Shown here in pieces: positions 7,286 to 20,134 of a stretch of 21,058 bases of DNA. The notes beneath the pieces were generated by a model. It was not told the DNA's origin. It saw only the letters and a program-made list of their open reading frames with translations, and searched no databases. The DNA is from a virus: positions 1 through 21,058 of IMG/VR virus record IMGVR_UViG_3300023179_000596. The stretch is one strand, 5' to 3'. The position numbers and the translations under genes are program-made. The stretch's first letter is position 1. Every line of letters begins with the position of its first letter.

Positions 7286-7385
7286 TAAAAATATCGCAAA
7301 TGACATTATCTTTGCAATTACATCGTGCGCTGTGGTCTGCCCGCCAAATAAAGGGTAAAAACAAAATCCTTTAATTTTTAACAAA
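7286..7385 (+). promoter_or_regulatory. Promoter (-7 box 7307-7314) and A/U-rich leader of the 7386 gene
   Basis: This 100-base gap contains TATCTTTG at 7307-7314, an exact Bacteroidota TAnnTTTG -7 element. I see no clear -33 TTG at the expected distance. Transcription would begin near 7318-7320 and give a leader of about 65 bases ending CCTTTAAT at 7368-7375 and TTTTTAACAAAATG across the start. There is no Shine-Dalgarno sequence. Confidence 0.65.
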
Positions 7386-7964
7386 ATGGCTTATTTAGAA
7401 TATGGATGTGGTGCTTTGCCAAACCATGAGCTTGTCCTTTGCGGCAACTATTTGCGTGGAGGTATTTCTGCGATAGGTATTCTTGAGGAAGATGCGTTTG
7501 GTACGGGTGCGACTTTTGCTACTGCTGCCGATTGGAGTAATGGAGCAAAATACACCACGGCTATCAACGCTGGAGACCTCAAGATTATCAAGAATGTTCG
7601 TGGAACTGTTCCCGATGCTTCGCCCGTAGATGTGGACAATCCCGTTGGCTGTGGCCCAACCTCGCTCTTAGCTGGGTTTGATTTTACCGCTACTTGGATG
7701 GATGCCAACACAACCGATGGAACGATTGACTTTTACAACGCTCTTAACAAGCGTGTAACGGGATTGGTTCTGTACTTGTGTGGCTCTAACGAGGTGATGG
7801 TAATCACTCAACCCGTGAATTATGTGTGCCTTCCCGTGAACGTTCCTGCCTCCAACAAGGAGTTGCAGATGTTCAACTGTACGGCCCGTGCTTCGCTCGG
7901 CCCAGACCAACTCCCACAGAAATACGCTGCGCCTTCCAACGCAGACGCTATCTTCGGAGCATAA
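7386..7964 (+). CDS. Probable major tail tube protein (abundant virion protein)
   Basis: The 192-residue, acidic, beta-rich protein has no signal peptide or membrane helix. It sits in its own transcription unit, with a -7 box about 70 bases upstream and a strong terminator right after it, as expected for a virion protein needed in many copies. The middle and end (GFDFTATWMDANTTDGTIDF, FYNALNK, VTGLVLYLCGS, QPVNYVCLPVNVP, then an LPQKYAAP-like tail) resemble tube proteins of siphoviruses: sheet-forming strands, a loop, and a C-terminus ending in P..Y..P. It has several Cys residues (the first near residue 8). The location after rather than before the tape measure gene is unusual. Alternatives are a head decoration or neck protein. 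The call is an inference from context and strand pattern. Confidence 0.45.
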   Translation: MAYLEYGCGALPNHELVLCGNYLRGGISAIGILEEDAFGTGATFATAADWSNGAKYTTAINAGDLKIIKNVRGTVPDASPVDVDNPVGCGPTSLLAGFDFTATWMDANTTDGTIDFYNALNKRVTGLVLYLCGSNEVMVITQPVNYVCLPVNVPASNKELQMFNCTARASLGPDQLPQKYAAPSNADAIFGA

Positions 7965-7985
7965 GTTTCGGTTTGGCTTTTTTTG

Positions 7986-8017
7986 AATCCTCGGCCATTA
8001 TTGGTCGGGGATTTTTT
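7986..8017 (+). terminator. Intrinsic terminator after the 7386 gene
   Basis: The 5' arm AATCCTCGGCC (7986-7996), loop ATTATT (7997-8002) and 3' arm GGTCGGGGATT (8003-8013) pair over 11 bp with two G-U wobbles. A T run (8012-8017) follows. It lies 21 bases after the stop codon and should end most transcripts of the small virion protein before the glycosyltransferase cassette. Confidence 0.9.
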
Positions 8018-8026
8018 ATATCTTTG
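8001..8026 (+). promoter_or_regulatory. Promoter of the glycosylation cassette, overlapping the terminator
   Basis: TATCTTTG at 8019-8026 is an exact TAnnTTTG -7 element. A TTGG at 8001-8004 could act as the -33 contact, though the gap of about 15 bases to the -7 box is short. The ATG at 8032 begins only 5 bases after the box, so the mRNA is expected to be leaderless or nearly so. The -33 candidate overlaps the loop and 3' arm of the terminator. Confidence 0.65.
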
Positions 8027-8031
8027 CACAG

Positions 8032-8979
8032 ATGAGTGAACAAACCACGGGAATAGTGATTATGGCTTTTGGAAAGTCAGCCTATCACGAAATGGCCTAC
8101 AACTTTGCAATATCGGTTAAGGCTAATGACAGAGACCTCCCCATTCAGTTGATATGCGACAGCAAGGATGTGCTTTTGCCAAGCAAGTATTGGGTCTTTG
8201 ACATTATTACGATTATTGACCAAGAGGACTTGTACTCTGGTCGTGGGTTCAGCCCAGGTAGAGCCAAGACGAGAATGGACAAGTATTTAGCCTTTGACAA
8301 CAACTTGTATTTTGACACCGATGGCGTGGCGTTAAAGTCTTTACAGCCATTGATTGACTTGCTTCTTGCGTTACCTGAAATCGGTTATTTCTATTCGCAA
8401 GTAGCCTCTTGGGACAACCCAAGAGGAGGAACGCCCAAGGCGAACTTAAAAAGGGATGGAGCGGATTTCCCTGCAATGCAATGGGCTACTCTTGACGCCA
8501 TTTGGGAGTTCCACGAACTTGACGATGATGCCGAAGTTGTGGCGATAAACAGCTCGTTTATGTTCCTTCGCAAAGGGCAGAAGCTCACCAATTTCTTTGA
8601 GCAAGTAAGGGACAACATTGACAATGGAATCCCTGTGGATAGGCTTAAAATGGCTTGGGGAGGCACTTATCCTGATGAACTCGCCTTCAACATCGCTTGT
8701 GCCCAATACAAGATTGACCCGTTTTGCGGCGTGAATCCTGTTTACTTTCAATACCGAAATGCTTTATCGGCCAAGGTTATTCCTTGGATGAACGAGAACT
8801 ATTATGTTCTTGGGTTATTTGGTGGGGCGGGTTTTTCGCACAATTCGGCTTGGGAGCATTCCTGTGCCCTTTTGGGGCAATACCACGCCAAGTTCGGATT
8901 GACACACGAGTACAAGTGGCACAACCTTGTGAGACAAAAGCACGCAGGACAGCAAAAGCAGCTGATACGATGGAAATGA
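8032..8979 (+). CDS. GT-A fold glycosyltransferase (cassette gene 1)
   Basis: The 315-residue cytosolic protein begins with a first Rossmann-type strand (TGIVIMAFG), so the start cannot be far downstream of 8032. A typical metal- and nucleotide-sugar-binding DxD is at residues 95-97 (YFDTDG), preceded by RAKTRMDKYLAF as in GT-A enzymes that read a host or glycan acceptor. Further on, AINSSFMFLRKG and WGGTYPDELAFNIA resemble the acceptor/catalytic half of GT8-like enzymes. There are no membrane segments. It is the first gene of a five-gene sugar cassette and shares ATGA with the next gene. The transferred sugar cannot be read from the sequence. The family is best described as a poorly classified GT-A glycosyltransferase. 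Confidence 0.7.
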   Translation: MSEQTTGIVIMAFGKSAYHEMAYNFAISVKANDRDLPIQLICDSKDVLLPSKYWVFDIITIIDQEDLYSGRGFSPGRAKTRMDKYLAFDNNLYFDTDGVALKSLQPLIDLLLALPEIGYFYSQVASWDNPRGGTPKANLKRDGADFPAMQWATLDAIWEFHELDDDAEVVAINSSFMFLRKGQKLTNFFEQVRDNIDNGIPVDRLKMAWGGTYPDELAFNIACAQYKIDPFCGVNPVYFQYRNALSAKVIPWMNENYYVLGLFGGAGFSHNSAWEHSCALLGQYHAKFGLTHEYKWHNLVRQKHAGQQKQLIRWK

Positions 8980-9617
8980 GCGGATTCATTTCGGTAATAA
9001 CCTCCTGCAAAGGCCGTATGCACCATTTGGAGGAGACTTTACCCACTTGGCTTTCGCAGATTGGAGACAATTACGAGGTTATCGTGGTGGACTATGGAGA
9101 CCCCGACAAGAGTGCCGACTATGTGGAGGCTTTGAAAGACCCAAGAGTTCGTGCTGTTAGGCACGATGCCGAAGGCTTTAACCTTAGCCACGCAAGAAAC
9201 ATTGGTGCTTTGGCTGCTTCGGAGAAGGCGGATACCTTTATGTTTATTGATGCGGATGCGTTGATGACCAACCATTCGTTCTTGAATTACCACAAGATGA
9301 AGGTTATGGAAGGAGGAACATTTGTAACGGGATGGCGATATGGCGATGGTACGGGATGTTGTATGATTTGGAAGGAGTTGTTTTACAGAGCGAAGGGTTA
9401 CAACGAGGTAGTGGATGGGTGGGGCATTGACGATGTTGATTTTTATTGGAGGGTGGAGCAGATGGGCTTTGAGCAAAGGGGATTTCACAACGGTATTGAA
9501 ACGATTAAGCACGATGATGAGGACAGGGTAAGATTTTATGCGAACAAGAATATTTGGGATACCAATGATAGAAACCATCGGCTTTCCAAGAGGACTTTCA
9601 TAAGTTGCATACCGTGA
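8976..9617 (+). CDS. GT2-type glycosyltransferase with GT7C-like motif (cassette gene 2)
   Basis: The 213-residue protein should transfer a sugar from a nucleotide donor. It has the GT2 opening (SVITSCKGRMHHLEETLP, then YEVIVVDYGDPD), a donor/metal motif FIDADAL with D92 and D94, and the galactosyltransferase C-terminal signature G-W-G-I-D-D-V-D-F at 148-156. That combination is typical of galactosyl/N-acetylgalactosaminyl-transferases related to chondroitin-synthase domains. The start at 8976 is chosen because its ATGA overlaps the stop of gene 1 and the GT2 fold begins right there; the ATG at 8970 is also possible. The open frame extends upstream to 8724, but that part overlaps gene 1 and does not look like a GT domain. 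No signal peptide or membrane helix is present. Confidence 0.85.
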   Translation: MSGFISVITSCKGRMHHLEETLPTWLSQIGDNYEVIVVDYGDPDKSADYVEALKDPRVRAVRHDAEGFNLSHARNIGALAASEKADTFMFIDADALMTNHSFLNYHKMKVMEGGTFVTGWRYGDGTGCCMIWKELFYRAKGYNEVVDGWGIDDVDFYWRVEQMGFEQRGFHNGIETIKHDDEDRVRFYANKNIWDTNDRNHRLSKRTFISCIP

Positions 9618-10477
9618 GCATTAAGGTAAGGGCAATATGTAATTGGACTGATTCTACGTCTTTGAATCGCAGGATTATGGAGCAGTCTTTATGGAGTGAG
9701 GCCGATGGCATTGAGTTTGTTGATGACGATTCCTATGATTGGCTTGTAGTGTTTAACGACAAAAGAGGGGCAGAGCCTCGTGTCCCCAAGGAACGAGTCA
9801 TAGGTTTCATCCAAGAGCCACCAGACCACGATTTCTTTGACCGAGGCATTGGGTCTTACTGCTCCGTTGTTTACACTTGCACCGAGCCACAAGCCTATGG
9901 TATTGAGGGCAACTTGGTTGGGTTTCCTTGCGGTATGTTTTACCACATGGATGGGCCTTTGTCGGATTACCTTGACGGCTTTGACAAGCGGAGGGCGATA
10001 AGCATGGTAACGAGCAACATCGCCCACGGATTTTACCTCTTTAGATATAAGATAGCCAAGGAACTTGCCTCTTGCGGATGGGTTGATGTTTATGGCCGTG
10101 GCTTGAATGTAAGGGGATGCAAGGGCGAACTCGGCAACAAGGCCGATGGGTTGATTCCTTACAAGTTCTCGGTATGTATGGAGAACGGCATTTGGAACGA
10201 TTACATCTCCGACAAGATTATTGATGCTGTTCTATGTAGAACCGTTCCGATTTATGTGGGGGCAAGGAACATCCACGAGCATATCCCTTTTGCCATTCGC
10301 CTTGAATCGTATGGCAACGCTTCCTTTGCAAAGGCCGAGATTGAACACATCGTGTCTTCAGTTGATTACGATTTCATTCTGCCACAAATGAACGCTTGGG
10401 TTCATAAGTATGCGAACGAATACACGATTTACTCAAAGATAAAAAACCACATTTATAGTGAAAAAAGTATTTCTTGA
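9614..10477 (+). CDS. GT10 fucosyltransferase-like glycosyltransferase (cassette gene 3)
   Basis: The 287-residue protein carries the GT10 donor-site signature: VYGRGLN (about 159-165), GCKGELGNK, then IPYKFSVCMENG (181-192), NDYISDKIIDAVL and TVPIYVGARN. GT10 enzymes are mostly alpha-1,3/1,4-fucosyltransferases using GDP-fucose, although the sugar used by phage members is not fixed by the motif. The start is taken as the GTG at 9614 because it forms a GTGA overlap with gene 2; a TTG at 9605 is in frame but less likely. There is no signal peptide, as in bacterial GT10 enzymes. The gene overlaps the next one by 20 bases. Family assignment is secure; the acceptor is unknown. Confidence 0.88.
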   Translation: MSIKVRAICNWTDSTSLNRRIMEQSLWSEADGIEFVDDDSYDWLVVFNDKRGAEPRVPKERVIGFIQEPPDHDFFDRGIGSYCSVVYTCTEPQAYGIEGNLVGFPCGMFYHMDGPLSDYLDGFDKRRAISMVTSNIAHGFYLFRYKIAKELASCGWVDVYGRGLNVRGCKGELGNKADGLIPYKFSVCMENGIWNDYISDKIIDAVLCRTVPIYVGARNIHEHIPFAIRLESYGNASFAKAEIEHIVSSVDYDFILPQMNAWVHKYANEYTIYSKIKNHIYSEKSIS

Positions 10478-11042
10478 TTGCGGAACGCACCTTTGCGAGG
10501 GGCTGAATCACTTTATCGCAAACGGCCTTATAGACAATTCCTTTGAGGTACACACCTTTGAGGCCAATCCTGCCTGCAACATAGGCGAGAGAGTCAAGGA
10601 TTTGCCTATCAAGGTCAAATGCCACAATGTAGCCGTTTGGGTAAAGGACGGTTATGTTCAGTTCAACCAAGAGAACCACAAGAAAAGTGGGAGCAACTCG
10701 CCGACAGACGGGGCTTCTGACATTGACGGATGGGGTTCTTCAGTAAGCGAAACGGGCTTTGTTCATGCCGGATATGATACGCAAGTAAAAGTCAAGAGCA
10801 TTGACTTTTCCAAATTCCTGGGCAAGTTCTCCAAAGATGATTTGATTTACTGCAAGATGGACATTGAGGGAAGCGAGTTTTTCGTGTTGAGGCATTTGAT
10901 TGAAACGGGTGAGATTGCTAAGATTAACACCCTTTTCGTTGAGTTTCATCCGATAAACATTGCCTGTGAATCTCAAAAAACGATTGATGGCCTGGTTCAC
11001 CACATTAAGAGCCACGGGGTTGATGTGAAGATGTGGTGGTAA
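10458..11042 (+). CDS. FkbM-type SAM-dependent methyltransferase (cassette gene 4)
   Basis: The 194-residue protein has the SAM-binding motif I at its very N-terminus (FLDCGTHLCEG, residues 5-15), an acidic second-strand residue (HTFEANP) and the FkbM hallmark MDIEGSEFFVLRHL starting at residue 134. FkbM enzymes are O-methyltransferases that often methylate sugar hydroxyls in glycan and antibiotic clusters. The GTG at 10458 is needed because motif I starts five codons later; it lies inside the end of the GT10 gene. The position between glycosyltransferases suggests that it methylates the glycan they build. Which hydroxyl is modified cannot be told. No membrane or export signals are seen. Confidence 0.88.
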   Translation: MKKVFLDCGTHLCEGLNHFIANGLIDNSFEVHTFEANPACNIGERVKDLPIKVKCHNVAVWVKDGYVQFNQENHKKSGSNSPTDGASDIDGWGSSVSETGFVHAGYDTQVKVKSIDFSKFLGKFSKDDLIYCKMDIEGSEFFVLRHLIETGEIAKINTLFVEFHPINIACESQKTIDGLVHHIKSHGVDVKMWW

Positions 11043-11055
11043 TTGATTTACACGG

Positions 11056-11658
11056 ATGCGACTTGTAGCCATAAACTATGCCACGGAAGATTACTTATCC
11101 GCAGCAAGAGCGCAGGCGAGAGATTACAGCATCCCTGTAAAGACGTACCAAGACGAAAAAAAGCACATAAGGGGCAATGGTTGGTGGAGGTGGAAGCCCA
11201 AAATAATCTTGGACGCTTTGATGGGCCTTGGCGAAGATGAAGCCTTGATTTACTTTGATTCAAGAGACATCCACACCCAAGTGCATTTTGACCTTGCAAA
11301 GGAGTACCTTACCGACAATCCTTTGCTTTTGAGGAAAGACTATCATCCGCATATCCGTTACACGAAGGGCGATTGCTATGCCTTGATGGATTGTATGCGG
11401 TTTTTCAACGAAGAGCCAATTCAATTAGAGGCTGGATTTATAGGGCTTCGTAAGACGGACTTTACGATTGCCTTTATGAAGGAATGGAGTAAATGGCTTG
11501 ACGTTGATAAAGTTGTGAACGATGACCCAAGCGAATATCCGAATCACCCCTCGTTTATTGACCACCGGCACGACCAAAGCGTTTTAATGAATCTCGCCTT
11601 AATACACGACCTCCCTATGGTGACTATTCACGGCATTGATTGCAATAAAAGGCCATAA
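11056..11658 (+). CDS. Small GT-A-like glycosyltransferase (cassette gene 5)
   Basis: The 200-residue protein starts at the first in-frame ATG after an in-frame TGA at 11044. It contains RGNGWWRWKPKIILDAL (residues 39-55), a stretch typical of small capsule/polysaccharide glycosyltransferases with the pattern YWRWKP. An acidic metal-site candidate YFDSRD follows (D68, D71), and then HDQSVLMNLA (172-181), which resembles the late catalytic Asp region of such enzymes. It lies 13 bases after the methyltransferase and ends the cassette. It lacks a canonical DxD, so activity is less certain than for genes 2 and 3. No signal peptide or membrane helix is visible. Confidence 0.6.
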   Translation: MRLVAINYATEDYLSAARAQARDYSIPVKTYQDEKKHIRGNGWWRWKPKIILDALMGLGEDEALIYFDSRDIHTQVHFDLAKEYLTDNPLLLRKDYHPHIRYTKGDCYALMDCMRFFNEEPIQLEAGFIGLRKTDFTIAFMKEWSKWLDVDKVVNDDPSEYPNHPSFIDHRHDQSVLMNLALIHDLPMVTIHGIDCNKRP

Positions 11659-11665
11659 GCACACC

Positions 11666-11697
11666 TTTCGCAAATAGCGAATTATACCTTAATTTTG
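11666..11697 (+). promoter_or_regulatory. Promoter for the head module
   Basis: TAATTTTG at 11690-11697 matches TAnnTTTG. TTTCG at 11666-11670 could be a degenerate -33 element with about 19 bases between. Transcription would start near 11702, giving a leader of about 50 bases before the portal ATG. A small TTCGC-AAATA-GCGAA hairpin (11667-11681) lies inside the promoter but has no T run, so I see no clear terminator for the sugar cassette. Confidence 0.55.
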
Positions 11698-11750: not shown

Positions 11751-13616
11751 ATGACAACAGAGGAAATTCTGCCGTTGTTAGACCATATCATAGCGGAGTA
11801 CAAGAAGTACGAGGTTAAGAAAAAGTCTGACAAGTTCTATATTCCCGATTTCTACCCAACCTACAAGGCTTGTGTGGAGATGGAGATGAGGCTTCGGATT
11901 CACTCCGATTACGATGCCTTCCCCGAAAAGCTATTTCGAGAGAAAGCTCCCAACGAGCTTCCCCACGAGTTCAATTACCGAAAGAACATTTACAAGCCGA
12001 TTACCGTTCCTTACTTCCATAAGGCGGTAAACATTGCGGGGAGGGTATGGAACAGGCAGAATTACGAGGTTCGCTTTGAGGATGCCTCTCAGGAAAAGTA
12101 TTTCAATGAGGAATATCCTCGTTTTGGCTCGTTAGAGAATTACTTTCAGCAGATTACCAACTTTATGACCTTGACCGACCCCAATGCGGTCTTGGCCATT
12201 ATGCCCACCGACCTTCAATACTTTGAGGATGGAACGTTTAATGACACGGTAGAAACCACTCCCGTTGCCCGTTGCTTTCACTCCAAGCGAGTTTGGGGGT
12301 GGAAAGAGAATGAGTATGCTATCCTAAAAGCCGATTACGGCTCGGAGGTTGAGCATGGTCGTGTTAAGTCCGATGAAGGCTTGGTATTCTACATCTTTGA
12401 TAAGAATGAGATTCAGATAGCCAAGCAAATCGGGAAGAAGGGCGATTACGAGTTTGAGATAGAGCTTTACTATCGCCACAACCTTGGTTATTTGCCTTGC
12501 ACGAGGCTCGGAGGTATTTCGGTGCAGGAACACGGAGATTACTATTTCCAATCGTTTTACACCCCTGCTATCCCTGCATTAGACCAAGCCGTGTGCGATT
12601 TCAGCACCTTGCAGATGTCCAAGTTCAGCCACGCTTTCTTGCAGAAGTGGGAGTATGTGGATGATTGCGATAAGTGTAACGGATCGGGGCAGATTGAGGA
12701 GGCTTTAGGCTTTGAGGAGAAGGTGGCGATTGCTTGTTCAAATTGCGGAGGTTCTGGCACGAAGCGAATGTTCGGCCCGATGTCTGTCTATCAAGTGCAG
12801 ACCCCGAATCGCTTTACTACCGAGGTGGAAACTAAGGTGAACATCCCTCCTGCGGGTTTCATTGAGTTAGACCCACAGATTCTTGATTTCTTGAACAAAC
12901 AAGTCATTACGAATATTCAAATGGCCTTTGAGTTGTTGTCTATTGACGTAATGAACAACGAGAAGATTTCGGGAAGGGAAACCGCCACAGGTAAGGCTAT
13001 TGACAGGGAGGAATTGTATTCCTTCCTGCTCCGTTTTGCCAACACCATCTTTGCCGACTATGAGTTCGCTATGGACACGATTGGGAGGATGCGTTATGGG
13101 GATGCTTGGTCTATGCCTGCGGTTCGCTATCCGCAGAACTTTGAGATGCGTACCGATGCGGAATTGACCGCAGAGATTAAGTTAGCTCCGACCTTTTCCA
13201 AGGCGATGTTGGCACAGCAGTACCTTGACACTCGCTTTCCCATTCAGGAGGAGAAGAGTGCGATAATGAAGTTGAGCGTGCAGGTTGATCCGTTCTTCAA
13301 TCTTGAAACGAGGGATGTCTTGGCGTTGGTTGCTTCGGGCATTGCCCCCAAGTGGAAGGCGATAATGCACTTTGAGTTGGAGTCTTTGATTAAGGAGGCT
13401 TTGTCGGAGAACGAGCAGTTCTTGACGCTGACCTTGGCCGAGCAGAAGGCGGTGTTGATAGAGATGGCCAAGAAGTTAGTGCCAGAGGATGAAGGCTCTT
13501 CGAGGCTTACTGCTCAGAGCGTTATGAACGCACGGACGGCTGTACCTGCCGCACCGGTAGAGGAAGAAGAAGATGAAGAAGGCGAGGAGGAAGAGGAGGA
13601 GGAGGAAGAATCGTAA
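11751..13616 (+). CDS. Portal protein with DnaJ-like zinc motif
   Basis: The 621-residue protein is read as the portal, the ring through which DNA enters and leaves the capsid. Its size, mixed helical fold, position directly before the Mu F-like minor head protein, scaffold and capsid genes, and segments such as NYRKNIYKPITVPYF, PAIPALDQAVCDF and ATGKAIDREELYSFL fit portals of Bacteroidota siphoviruses. An insert at about 300-340 carries C306-x2-C309-NGSG and C329-x2-C332-GGSG, the repeat of the DnaJ cysteine-rich domain. The C-terminus (about 603-621) is almost pure Glu/Asp. Its GAG/GAA codons create the ribosome-binding site of the next gene. The start at 11751 follows a -7 box and a leader of about 50 bases. 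No Shine-Dalgarno sequence is seen. Confidence 0.85.
   Translation: MTTEEILPLLDHIIAEYKKYEVKKKSDKFYIPDFYPTYKACVEMEMRLRIHSDYDAFPEKLFREKAPNELPHEFNYRKNIYKPITVPYFHKAVNIAGRVWNRQNYEVRFEDASQEKYFNEEYPRFGSLENYFQQITNFMTLTDPNAVLAIMPTDLQYFEDGTFNDTVETTPVARCFHSKRVWGWKENEYAILKADYGSEVEHGRVKSDEGLVFYIFDKNEIQIAKQIGKKGDYEFEIELYYRHNLGYLPCTRLGGISVQEHGDYYFQSFYTPAIPALDQAVCDFSTLQMSKFSHAFLQKWEYVDDCDKCNGSGQIEEALGFEEKVAIACSNCGGSGTKRMFGPMSVYQVQTPNRFTTEVETKVNIPPAGFIELDPQILDFLNKQVITNIQMAFELLSIDVMNNEKISGRETATGKAIDREELYSFLLRFANTIFADYEFAMDTIGRMRYGDAWSMPAVRYPQNFEMRTDAELTAEIKLAPTFSKAMLAQQYLDTRFPIQEEKSAIMKLSVQVDPFFNLETRDVLALVASGIAPKWKAIMHFELESLIKEALSENEQFLTLTLAEQKAVLIEMAKKLVPEDEGSSRLTAQSVMNARTAVPAAPVEEEEDEEGEEEEEEEEES
12666..12746 (+). 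other. DnaJ-type CxxCxGxG pair encoded inside the portal
   Basis: Two motifs, CDKCNGSG (from C306) and CSNCGGSG (from C329), are 20 residues apart between the inner cysteines. In the DnaJ family two such motifs form one four-Cys zinc site. Here they would form a single zinc-ribbon hairpin projecting from the portal body. The motif is seen directly; zinc binding is inferred. Confidence 0.8.
13594..13605 (+). promoter_or_regulatory. Shine-Dalgarno-like AGGAGGAGGAGG in the portal's acidic tail
   Basis: AGGAGGAGGAGG lies 12 bases before the ATG at 13618 and is part of the Glu codons ending the portal gene. It supports 13618 as the start of the minor head protein, although the spacing is longer than usual. 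Confidence 0.5.
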
Positions 13617-16800: not shown

Positions 16801-16825
16801 TCCTTCGGGTTGTATGCGACAAGAA

Positions 16826-16851
16826 GGGGGTGCGAAAGCATCCCCTTTTTT
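16826..16851 (+). terminator. Intrinsic terminator after the major capsid gene
   Basis: GGGGGTGC (16826-16833), a GAAA tetraloop and GCATCCCC (16838-16845) form an 8-bp stem with one G-U pair. The T run is 16846-16851, followed by G and four more T. It stands 25 bases after the capsid stop codon. Confidence 0.93.
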
Positions 16852-16855
16852 GTTT

Positions 16856-16863
16856 TACCTTTG
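16856..16863 (+). promoter_or_regulatory. -7 box (TACCTTTG) directly after the capsid terminator
   Basis: TACCTTTG at 16856-16863 matches TAnnTTTG and begins 4 bases after the terminator's main T run. The ATG at 16868 is only 4 bases downstream, so the transcript would be leaderless or nearly so. I see no good -33 element; the expected place is inside the terminator stem. Confidence 0.6.
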
Positions 16864-16867
16864 CCTT

Positions 16868-17875
16868 ATGAGTAATTGTTGGGATAATTTAATTGGTATT
16901 CGTGGACTTTGCTCTGCGGGTACACCGCCCATTAGTGGCCTGTATATCAACGACCTAACGGGCATAGGGCTTCGAGACCTTGATTCTGGCGTGGACGAGG
17001 AGGACAAGACCGCCTATACGCTTATTGAGCGCAAGATTGACCAAGCGGCCAATATGCTGAAAGCGGAGTCTTTGGCTTACTTGCAGAGCCGTTGGAATTA
17101 CACGACTTCGGCCTTTAATGGCGATTTGGGGTTCTATGGTGAGTCGCTTGAATCGTTACCTGCTGCTGCGGTTTGGAGGGGCATAGGAATGAGGTATCGG
17201 CAGGTGGATTACATTTCGGTTACGATTTCTTCTATCAGCCTGTTGCTTCCAAGTTCGGGTGTTGTGCCGGTGAGGGTGGTGGATTTGAGAACAGGAACGA
17301 CCTTGGACACCTTCAATATCACTTTGGTAGCCAATGCGGTTACGAGGGTTGTGATTAACAAGACGTACCAATCCAACGGACAGATGCTGAACCTGGCGGT
17401 CCTTTACAATGCGACCTCGGTGGCTTCCTTCCAAACGGGCTTGTACCCGACCTATGGATGTGGTGGATGTGGCAGGAATTATCGTTGGACGGAGAATATG
17501 TTGGAGAGAACTATTGAGATACCAACGAGTGCGCCTTTGCTTGACTTGAACATAAGCGGAGGAGCCTTCACGGGAGGCTTGAGCGTTCAGTATCAGGTCG
17601 CTTGCAGCTTTGATTCGCTCTTGTGCGCTCATGTCACGCAACTCGGCTATCCTTTGCTTTACAAGGCTGGGATGTTGCTATTGAAGGAGATGGAGTTCTC
17701 CAAGCGATTGAATGGGGTGATTGTCTTTAATCGTGATATGAACCAAGAGCTTTCGGAGTATTACCAAGCTCAATACGACCAATATATGAAGCGGTACTTT
17801 GAGCAGGCGAACCTGCCCGAAGATGGCTGTTTTTCGTGTCGGCAGAGGGTAAGACAAGCCTCTCGCATTCCATAG
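16868..17875 (+). CDS. Probable head-tail connector/virion structural protein with CxxC pairs
   Basis: The 335-residue protein starts at 16868; an in-frame ATG at 16814 lies upstream of the terminator and is rejected. The N-terminus CWDNLIGIRGLC, then SGLYINDLTGI, is a conserved-looking opening I associate with Bacteroidota phage structural proteins. The middle is a beta-rich domain. Two CxxC pairs follow (C198/C201 in YGCGGCGRNYRW, and C321/C324 in DGCFSCRQR), and the protein ends in SRIP. The position right after the capsid gene suggests an adaptor or connector protein on the portal. I do not recognise an enzyme motif. The predicted leaderless start is discussed under findings. Confidence 0.5.
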   Translation: MSNCWDNLIGIRGLCSAGTPPISGLYINDLTGIGLRDLDSGVDEEDKTAYTLIERKIDQAANMLKAESLAYLQSRWNYTTSAFNGDLGFYGESLESLPAAAVWRGIGMRYRQVDYISVTISSISLLLPSSGVVPVRVVDLRTGTTLDTFNITLVANAVTRVVINKTYQSNGQMLNLAVLYNATSVASFQTGLYPTYGCGGCGRNYRWTENMLERTIEIPTSAPLLDLNISGGAFTGGLSVQYQVACSFDSLLCAHVTQLGYPLLYKAGMLLLKEMEFSKRLNGVIVFNRDMNQELSEYYQAQYDQYMKRYFEQANLPEDGCFSCRQRVRQASRIP

Positions 17876-19618: not shown

Positions 19619-20134
19619 ATGGCATTAGCACGGCTCACATCGTTTTCGTTTGGGGAAAGGCTCTTGACCTTGAATTATAGTGGCTCGGAGGTCTATTATG
19701 TCCCCTATGCCCATTTGATATCCTTTGAGTACGACCCCACGACTTTAGACCCCAAGGTTTACATCTATTTGCACGGCACGCTTGACAATGTGTTGTCGGT
19801 ATCTGAATCCGAACTCGTTGCCATTGGGAGCAGCATTAGTGCGTTCCTGGCCTCGTTGCAAGGCGTGATGTCGAATCAGTTGTTTTGGTTTGATATATGG
19901 GCGAATTTTCTTGCTCGTGCCAAGGCCAATTCTGCGTTGACCCCCGAACTCGCAAGCACTTGCGGTCGGTATTTCCGATACGAATTGAATCCTCCCTTGG
20001 TCCCTACGGCCACGGAGGACTATGCAGACTTCTGGTACTTCAATCAGCGGTGCGACAACGATAGTGCCACCGTGAAGGAGGCATCGGCCTATAATTGTTT
20101 GCTCACGAGGTTTTCAACCTTAAATCCGAATTAA
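19619..20134 (+). CDS. Unrecognised protein between two fibre-like genes
   Basis: The 171-residue protein is soluble, with no signal peptide. Its N-terminal half has beta strands (LTSFSFGERLLTLNYSGSE, then YIYLHGTLDNVLSVSESELV). A helix follows (AIGSSISAFLASLQG), then an aromatic- and Cys-containing C-terminal half (QLFWFDIWANFLARAK, CGRYFRYELNPP, WYFNQRCDN). I do not recognise a family. Tight coupling to both neighbours suggests a virion or fibre-assembly role, for example a chaperone or attachment piece. That is inference only. Confidence 0.55.
   Translation: MALARLTSFSFGERLLTLNYSGSEVYYVPYAHLISFEYDPTTLDPKVYIYLHGTLDNVLSVSESELVAIGSSISAFLASLQGVMSNQLFWFDIWANFLARAKANSALTPELASTCGRYFRYELNPPLVPTATEDYADFWYFNQRCDNDSATVKEASAYNCLLTRFSTLNPN

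Follow-up and report, generated by a model that had tools for sequence, protein, structure and literature searches.

A candidate virion-glycosylation cassette with a fixed first gene and exchangeable outer modules between the tail-tube and portal genes of uncultured phages

Virion glycosylation of the phages Che8, Corndog, and Myrna was reportedly described by Freeman et al. in 2023, as relayed by papers that cite that work. We analyzed the 21,058-base linear IMG/VR virus record IMGVR_UViG_3300023179_000596 (the window, meaning this whole stretch of DNA), in which a cassette of five genes for predicted glycan-building and glycan-modifying proteins is bounded by genes for a tail-tube-fold protein and the portal protein. 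The Corndog-type (cluster O, gp35-gp38) virion-glycosylation cassette offers the nearest known parallel. Corndog carries an O-methyltransferase, two glycosyltransferases (GTs), and a putative N-acetylglucosamine (GlcNAc)-transferase between its portal and protease genes, and these genes are expressed in infected cells (PMC4351075). PMC12363180 and PMC12619734 report glycans on the capsid and tail-tube subunits of mycobacteriophages.

The two sets are alike in that a methyltransferase and several GTs are located among virion genes by the portal, and in that the enzymes appear soluble with no membrane export genes in the window cassette, as judged by a coarse hydropathy measure. The products of the expressed Corndog set were not identified as virion proteins. 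None of the window's cassette proteins matched a mycobacteriophage among the phage records searched by tblastn. The window cassette differs in lying between the tail-tube and portal genes, behind a predicted terminator and its own predicted Bacteroidota-type promoter, and in having contents that are exchanged among close relatives, with the tail-tube gene as partner of its first gene, A1. We think it rather probable that the phage uses this locus to glycosylate its own virions, through a cassette whose start is fixed and whose outer modules are exchangeable. The initial annotation had proposed that a virion protein is glycosylated step by step in the cytosol, and this reading is the best supported, if unproven. 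The genes concerned are as follows.

7386-7964, + strand: tail-tube protein, candidate glycan acceptor (AlphaFold model, fold matches; A1 is the next gene in 59/59 uncensored loci)
8032-8979, + strand: A1, glycosyltransferase with a GT-A fold, always the first gene and predicted to initiate the glycan (model, fold match, invariant DxD, dN/dS 0.10)
8976-9617, + strand: GT2 with a GT7C-type C-terminal half, predicted to add the second sugar (PF00535 and PF02709 over cut-off)
9605-10477, + strand: GT10 (fucosyltransferase-family) protein, TTG start (PF00852, PDB matches, motif)
10458-11042, + strand: FkbM-family methyltransferase, GTG start, predicted glycan O-methylation (PF05050, TIGR01444)
11056-11658, + strand: A2, possible GT-A-like protein (131 IMG/VR relatives; common to an unrelated phage group)
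11751-13616, + strand: portal protein (phrog_7376)

We compared the interval between the tail-tube and portal genes in many IMG/VR relatives, merging overlapping fetches of one contig by interval sequence; these are metagenomic contigs and their independence is uneven. All 39 distinct intervals carry a glycan cassette, in 14 different gene contents, and the cassette is kept in this slot down to 50% portal identity. A1 is the first gene in every interval, GT2 is second in 35/39, and GT10 is present in 36/39. Profile scans with the tail-tube protein and with A1 each found 61 loci, and the two genes were adjacent in all of those not cut by a contig end (59/59 in either scan). The initial annotation had suggested a search for the same five-gene order; that exact set is rare (2/39), and what relatives share is the slot, A1 in first place, and mostly GT2 and GT10. 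The remaining positions are filled in relatives by FkbM or other methyltransferases, extra GT2s, a Nucleotid_trans protein, a DegT-like protein, hexapeptide proteins, and a NeuD/PglD-type acetyltransferase, and each cassette holds a methyl- or acetyltransferase-type gene. The DegT-like protein (L010:12164-12787 and others) is 208 aa long versus a Pfam profile of 360 positions. From their sequences, it and the NeuD/PglD-type acetyltransferase are probable sugar-modifying proteins, so that the earlier statement that no nucleotide-sugar gene is present describes this window and not its relatives.

Comparisons of close relatives suggest how this variety arises. Contigs L010 and L012 are 97.3% identical in portal DNA and 94.9% in A1 DNA, and most of the genes between differ. 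Conversely, the cassettes of L012 and L015 are 96.3% identical over 3.4 kb, versus 84.6% for their portals. The cassette differs in 29 of the 37 pairs whose portals share 95% identity or more, and in 13 of the 21 pairs with the same cassette the portals are less than 95% identical. On this sequence comparison, cassette modules are exchanged between phages in the style of a serotype locus. Bacterial O-antigen and capsule loci likewise have conserved flanks around exchangeable GT, methyltransferase, acetyltransferase, and DegT-like genes; by contrast, the phage cassette has no Wzx, Wzy, or initiating membrane transferase, sits at a structural-gene slot, and has a predicted acceptor that is a protein rather than a lipid.

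The ratio of nonsynonymous to synonymous substitution rates (dN/dS) was calculated for four cassette genes, the portal, and the tail tube. Median values were 0.10 for A1, 0.08 for GT2, 0.14 for GT10, and 0.13 for FkbM, compared to 0.08 for the portal and 0.09 for the tail tube. These estimates place the four enzymes under purifying selection akin to that on structural genes, and values of 0.08-0.14 argue that they are functional rather than debris. With the conserved slot, this led us to reject the possibility, raised earlier, that the cassette is a stray host fragment. A distance correlation of 0.91 between the tail tube and A1, versus 0.82 between A1 and the portal, was dropped as evidence of pairing because linkage confounds it.

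A1 is 315 aa long and its AlphaFold model is of high quality (mean predicted local distance difference test score, pLDDT, 89.7; predicted template modeling score, pTM, 0.90). The model matches GT-A enzymes of the GT8/GT24 kind, namely LARGE1 (Z 17.8), UGGT, glycogenin, GlyE, and LgtC (Z about 16-18), and shares their DxD motif (D95, D97), which is invariant across 19 sequences with identity down to 32%. However, A1 is only 8-16% identical to these enzymes over the aligned regions and matched no Pfam or NCBIfam family, including Pfam GT8; a PDB sequence search gave no useful match. By modeled fold and DxD motif, A1 is thus a GT8-like GT-A-fold enzyme outside the GT8 sequence profile. Several of the matching enzymes act on protein or glycoprotein acceptors, and we infer that A1 is the initiator of a glycan on a virion protein.

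The next three genes were assigned from profile matches. GT2, which starts with an ATG at 8970 or 8976 and overlaps the A1 stop codon, matched PF00535 (E 1.2e-13) and PF02709 (GT7C, 2.1e-6), both over the Pfam curated cut-offs, and retains the DAD and GWG(x)[DE]D motifs. GT10 matched PF00852 (2.4e-10, 40.8 bits versus a cut-off of 23.9) and alpha-1,3-fucosyltransferases in the PDB (1.7e-6), and its donor site in the window reads Y-x-S-D-K, one form of Y-x-S-D-[KE], within the family motif Y-x-[ST]-[ED]-K. A NCBIfam TldD label on this protein was judged spurious. FkbM matched PF05050 (1.7e-13, also over the curated cut-off) and TIGR01444 (53.2 bits versus a cut-off of 37.7). A2 had no match in Pfam or NCBIfam and no convincing one in the PDB, where hits to repeat designs, Plasmodium proteins, and phosphodiesterase MJ0936 were judged to be chance. 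Its only conserved signature is an invariant WKP...ILD...YxDxxD pattern, and it is possibly a GT-A glycosyltransferase. The gene identities first proposed therefore held for A1 (as GT-A, by fold), GT2/GT7C, GT10, and FkbM, and the description of A2 as GT-A-like was not confirmed by these searches. A Kyte-Doolittle scan, a coarse measure, gave peak 19-residue means of at most 1.4, so that none of the five proteins shows a hydrophobic segment, in agreement with the earlier view that they are cytosolic. Also as first described, the cassette encodes no flippase, polymerase, or membrane initiator, and no GtrA was detected with Pfam among its proteins. As predicted from sequence, the encoded enzymes fall into classes that build and cap glycans, which supports the virion-glycosylation reading.

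All open reading frames in the window are on the + strand, in the order tape measure, two large unassigned proteins, the 192-aa protein encoded at 7386, A1, GT2, GT10, FkbM, A2, portal, and more genes, including a tail-fibre-like gene 3' of the portal; those of the five cassette genes lie where the initial annotation had placed them. The AlphaFold model of the 192-aa protein has modest confidence (pLDDT 72) and a tail-tube beta-sandwich fold. Its Foldseek matches were mostly tail tubes, with VIA Z scores of 8-9 versus lambda gpV and others, and included the Sf11 and T1 tubes; a PDB sequence search gave no useful match. The predicted fold supports its identification as the tail-tube protein. 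The portal identity is borne out by a match to PHROG 7376 (1.7e-16). The location between the gene for a tail-tube-fold protein and the portal was confirmed.

Four predicted transcription signals surround these genes.

7307-7314, + strand: promoter of the tail-tube gene, a -7-type TAnnTTTG box (34/34 distinct upstream regions)
7985-8014, + strand: intrinsic terminator 3' of the tail-tube gene, a 13-pair stem then a T run (hairpin conserved in relatives)
8019-8026, + strand: TATCTTTG, Bacteroidota-type -7 box that would serve the cassette, 5 nt ahead of the A1 ATG (TAnnTTTG in 30/31)
11690-11697, + strand: TAATTTTG, promoter box of the portal unit and 3' boundary of the cassette (TAnnTTTG in 35/35)

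TAHHTTTG is the -7 element of Flavobacterium johnsoniae, where transcription starts 4-5 nt downstream of it, and the phylum is without Shine-Dalgarno sequences (PMC6847099). The boxes found here fit this consensus; their six defined bases are invariant and the flanking bases variable. Among relatives, TAnnTTTG lies mostly 75-80 nt ahead of the tail-tube start codon (34/34 distinct regions, about 2 expected by shuffling), nearly always 11-13 nt ahead of the A1 start (30/31, about 1.8 expected), and mostly at -61 to -64 from the portal (35/35, about 1.4 expected), with shuffle expectations of 1.4-2.2 overall. A hairpin followed by a T run occurs within 90 nt of A1 in 27/29 distinct upstream regions (shuffled mean 0.0), with stems of several unrelated sequences. 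The same scan found no such hairpin upstream of the tail-tube, portal, GT2, GT10, or h4 genes. Because A1 follows a terminator and a -7 box, and another box lies ahead of the portal, the cassette is probably its own transcription unit; the initial annotation, which had put it inside the virion-structure operon, was correct as to position and probably not as to a single operon. With a box 5 nt ahead of the ATG and the published spacing rule, the A1 mRNA is predicted to be near-leaderless, its 5' end at or close to the ATG. In a 44-kb relative the same box is ahead of the terminase, tape-measure, tail-tube, A1, portal, and other genes.

The boxes, together with weak Shine-Dalgarno signals, indicate that the host is probably a member of the Bacteroidota; searches of genome contigs with portal and A1 profiles found no host or prophage relatives. 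The only similarity to cultured phages was a weak one between portals, with phages of Polaribacter and Pseudanabaena; around the portal gene of the Polaribacter phage no GT genes are annotated.

Other observations concern these signals. In the leader of the tail-tube gene (7315-7385), a TCGTGCG(T/A)TGTGGCC-type sequence is conserved in most relatives and is possibly a translational or RNA-stability element. Just ahead of the ATG of the h5 homologue, near position 19642 of relative G001, are a hairpin resembling a terminator and a TAACTTTG box, a design like that between the tail-tube gene and A1. Within 16814-16870 of the window, a TAnnTTTG at 16856 suggests that the ATG at 16814 is probably not the real h5 start, which would lie downstream.

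We propose that A1 would act first, in the cytoplasm, attaching a sugar to a virion protein; the likeliest acceptor is the tail-tube subunit, whose gene lies directly upstream. GT2 would supply the second sugar, GT10 a fucose-like sugar, and A2 perhaps one more, with sugar donors coming from the host and FkbM methylating the glycan. The tail-tube gene would be transcribed from its own promoter and halted by the terminator, so that the enzymes would be expressed separately, and probably at a lower level, from the near-leaderless promoter. Recombination between the tail-tube/A1 genes and the portal would swap the outer enzymes, and close relatives would therefore carry different glycans, amounting to a virion serotype. 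We infer the acceptor, the glycan structure, the expression level, and the benefit. Several points weigh against this proposal. An acceptor motif was not found, and the sequence evidence comes from uncultured phages only. A common fold is no proof that A1 glycosylates protein, and its adjacency to the tail-tube gene may reflect shared ancestry and linkage only. In tblastn searches of 50,697 phage records, no deposited phage resembled A1 or FkbM at E 1e-3, and the matches of the five cassette proteins included no mycobacteriophage. Placement among late genes leaves the time of expression unfixed; because the same box also precedes early-strand genes it gives no timing information, and an assignment of temporal class from promoters was dropped.

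The enzymes could instead alter a host surface glycan during infection, blocking adsorption of competitors or re-adsorption of progeny to debris, with module exchange tracking host surface types. Surface-polysaccharide loci typically contain GT10, GT2, and FkbM genes, the exchangeable outer modules look like capsule and O-antigen loci, and cytosolic GTs could work on lipid-linked precursors at the membrane. However, the cassette lacks a flippase, polymerase, and membrane initiator, its five proteins have no hydrophobic stretch, and this explanation gives no obvious reason for obligate pairing with the tail-tube gene. Phage-encoded GTs also occur in the gtr seroconversion clusters (P22/SfII type) of temperate phages, but neither GtrA nor an integrase was found in three relatives of 41-44 kb, records that may be incomplete. 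This alternative from the initial annotation thus gained no support and we regard it as unlikely. The same three relatives weaken, with the same reservation, the idea that the GTs decorate hypermodified bases of phage DNA, because no thymidylate synthase was found in them. DNA-glycosylating phage GTs have been reported (Pyle 2024, as described in PMC12619734). However, Tet/JBP was not found in relatives by a search that had no positive control, and neither the GT10 and FkbM set nor the tail-tube pairing points to DNA; we also count a C-5 cytosine methylase in one relative among the points against. A DNA target is, in our view, highly improbable.

It is also conceivable, though somewhat less so than a host-surface role, that the target is something else, such as a host protein, a small molecule, or another virion protein (for example fibres or capsid), and that the cassette lies where it does only because the slot tolerates insertions. 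Descent can explain the linkage of A1 to the tail-tube gene, and the tail tube has no S/T-rich motif conserved in all members. However, no empty slot occurred among the 39 distinct intervals, even where portal identity falls to 50%, which is unlike a tolerated insertion.

A2 has a further distribution. Nearly all of its 131 IMG/VR relatives come from an unrelated phage group, mostly with 67-70% identity among the matches listed. There it belongs to a four-gene block (a 220-aa protein, a methyltransferase, a 207-aa protein, and A2) 3' of the large terminase gene (L136:4206-6612). Median identity in this block is 95-99%, versus 78% for the terminase and 67-71% for two downstream genes, which hints at recent spread. 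A TAACTTTG box is present at the terminase stop, ahead of the block. The portal of the window has two features of its own. A CxxCxGxG-type zinc-finger-like insert (12660-12760, residues ~304-337) gives weak DnaJ and Anti-TRAP profile matches, with most of its key residues invariant among relatives. The C-terminus is a long acidic tail with glutamate runs (13560-13613), a region that varies among relatives.

A few mycobacteriophages are known to have their virions glycosylated by phage enzymes; here, an entire lineage of uncultured phages reserves a slot for one fixed and several exchangeable enzymes. The occurrence of A2 in an unrelated, abundant phage group points to a flow of glycan genes between phages. 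A broader interpretation, which we hold tentatively and put at a little short of even, is that Bacteroidota phages may have a lineage-wide virion serotype locus, in which an obligate initiating GT is paired to the tail-tube gene and outer glycan genes recombine, leaving near-identical phages with chemically different coats. With the A1/tail-tube pair, the idea can be tested directly by biochemistry. The slot and its exchangeable enzymes open to testing whether phages diversify their coat chemistry in the way that bacteria diversify O-antigens, and which environmental pressure, such as host defence, predators, or adsorption, would drive it.

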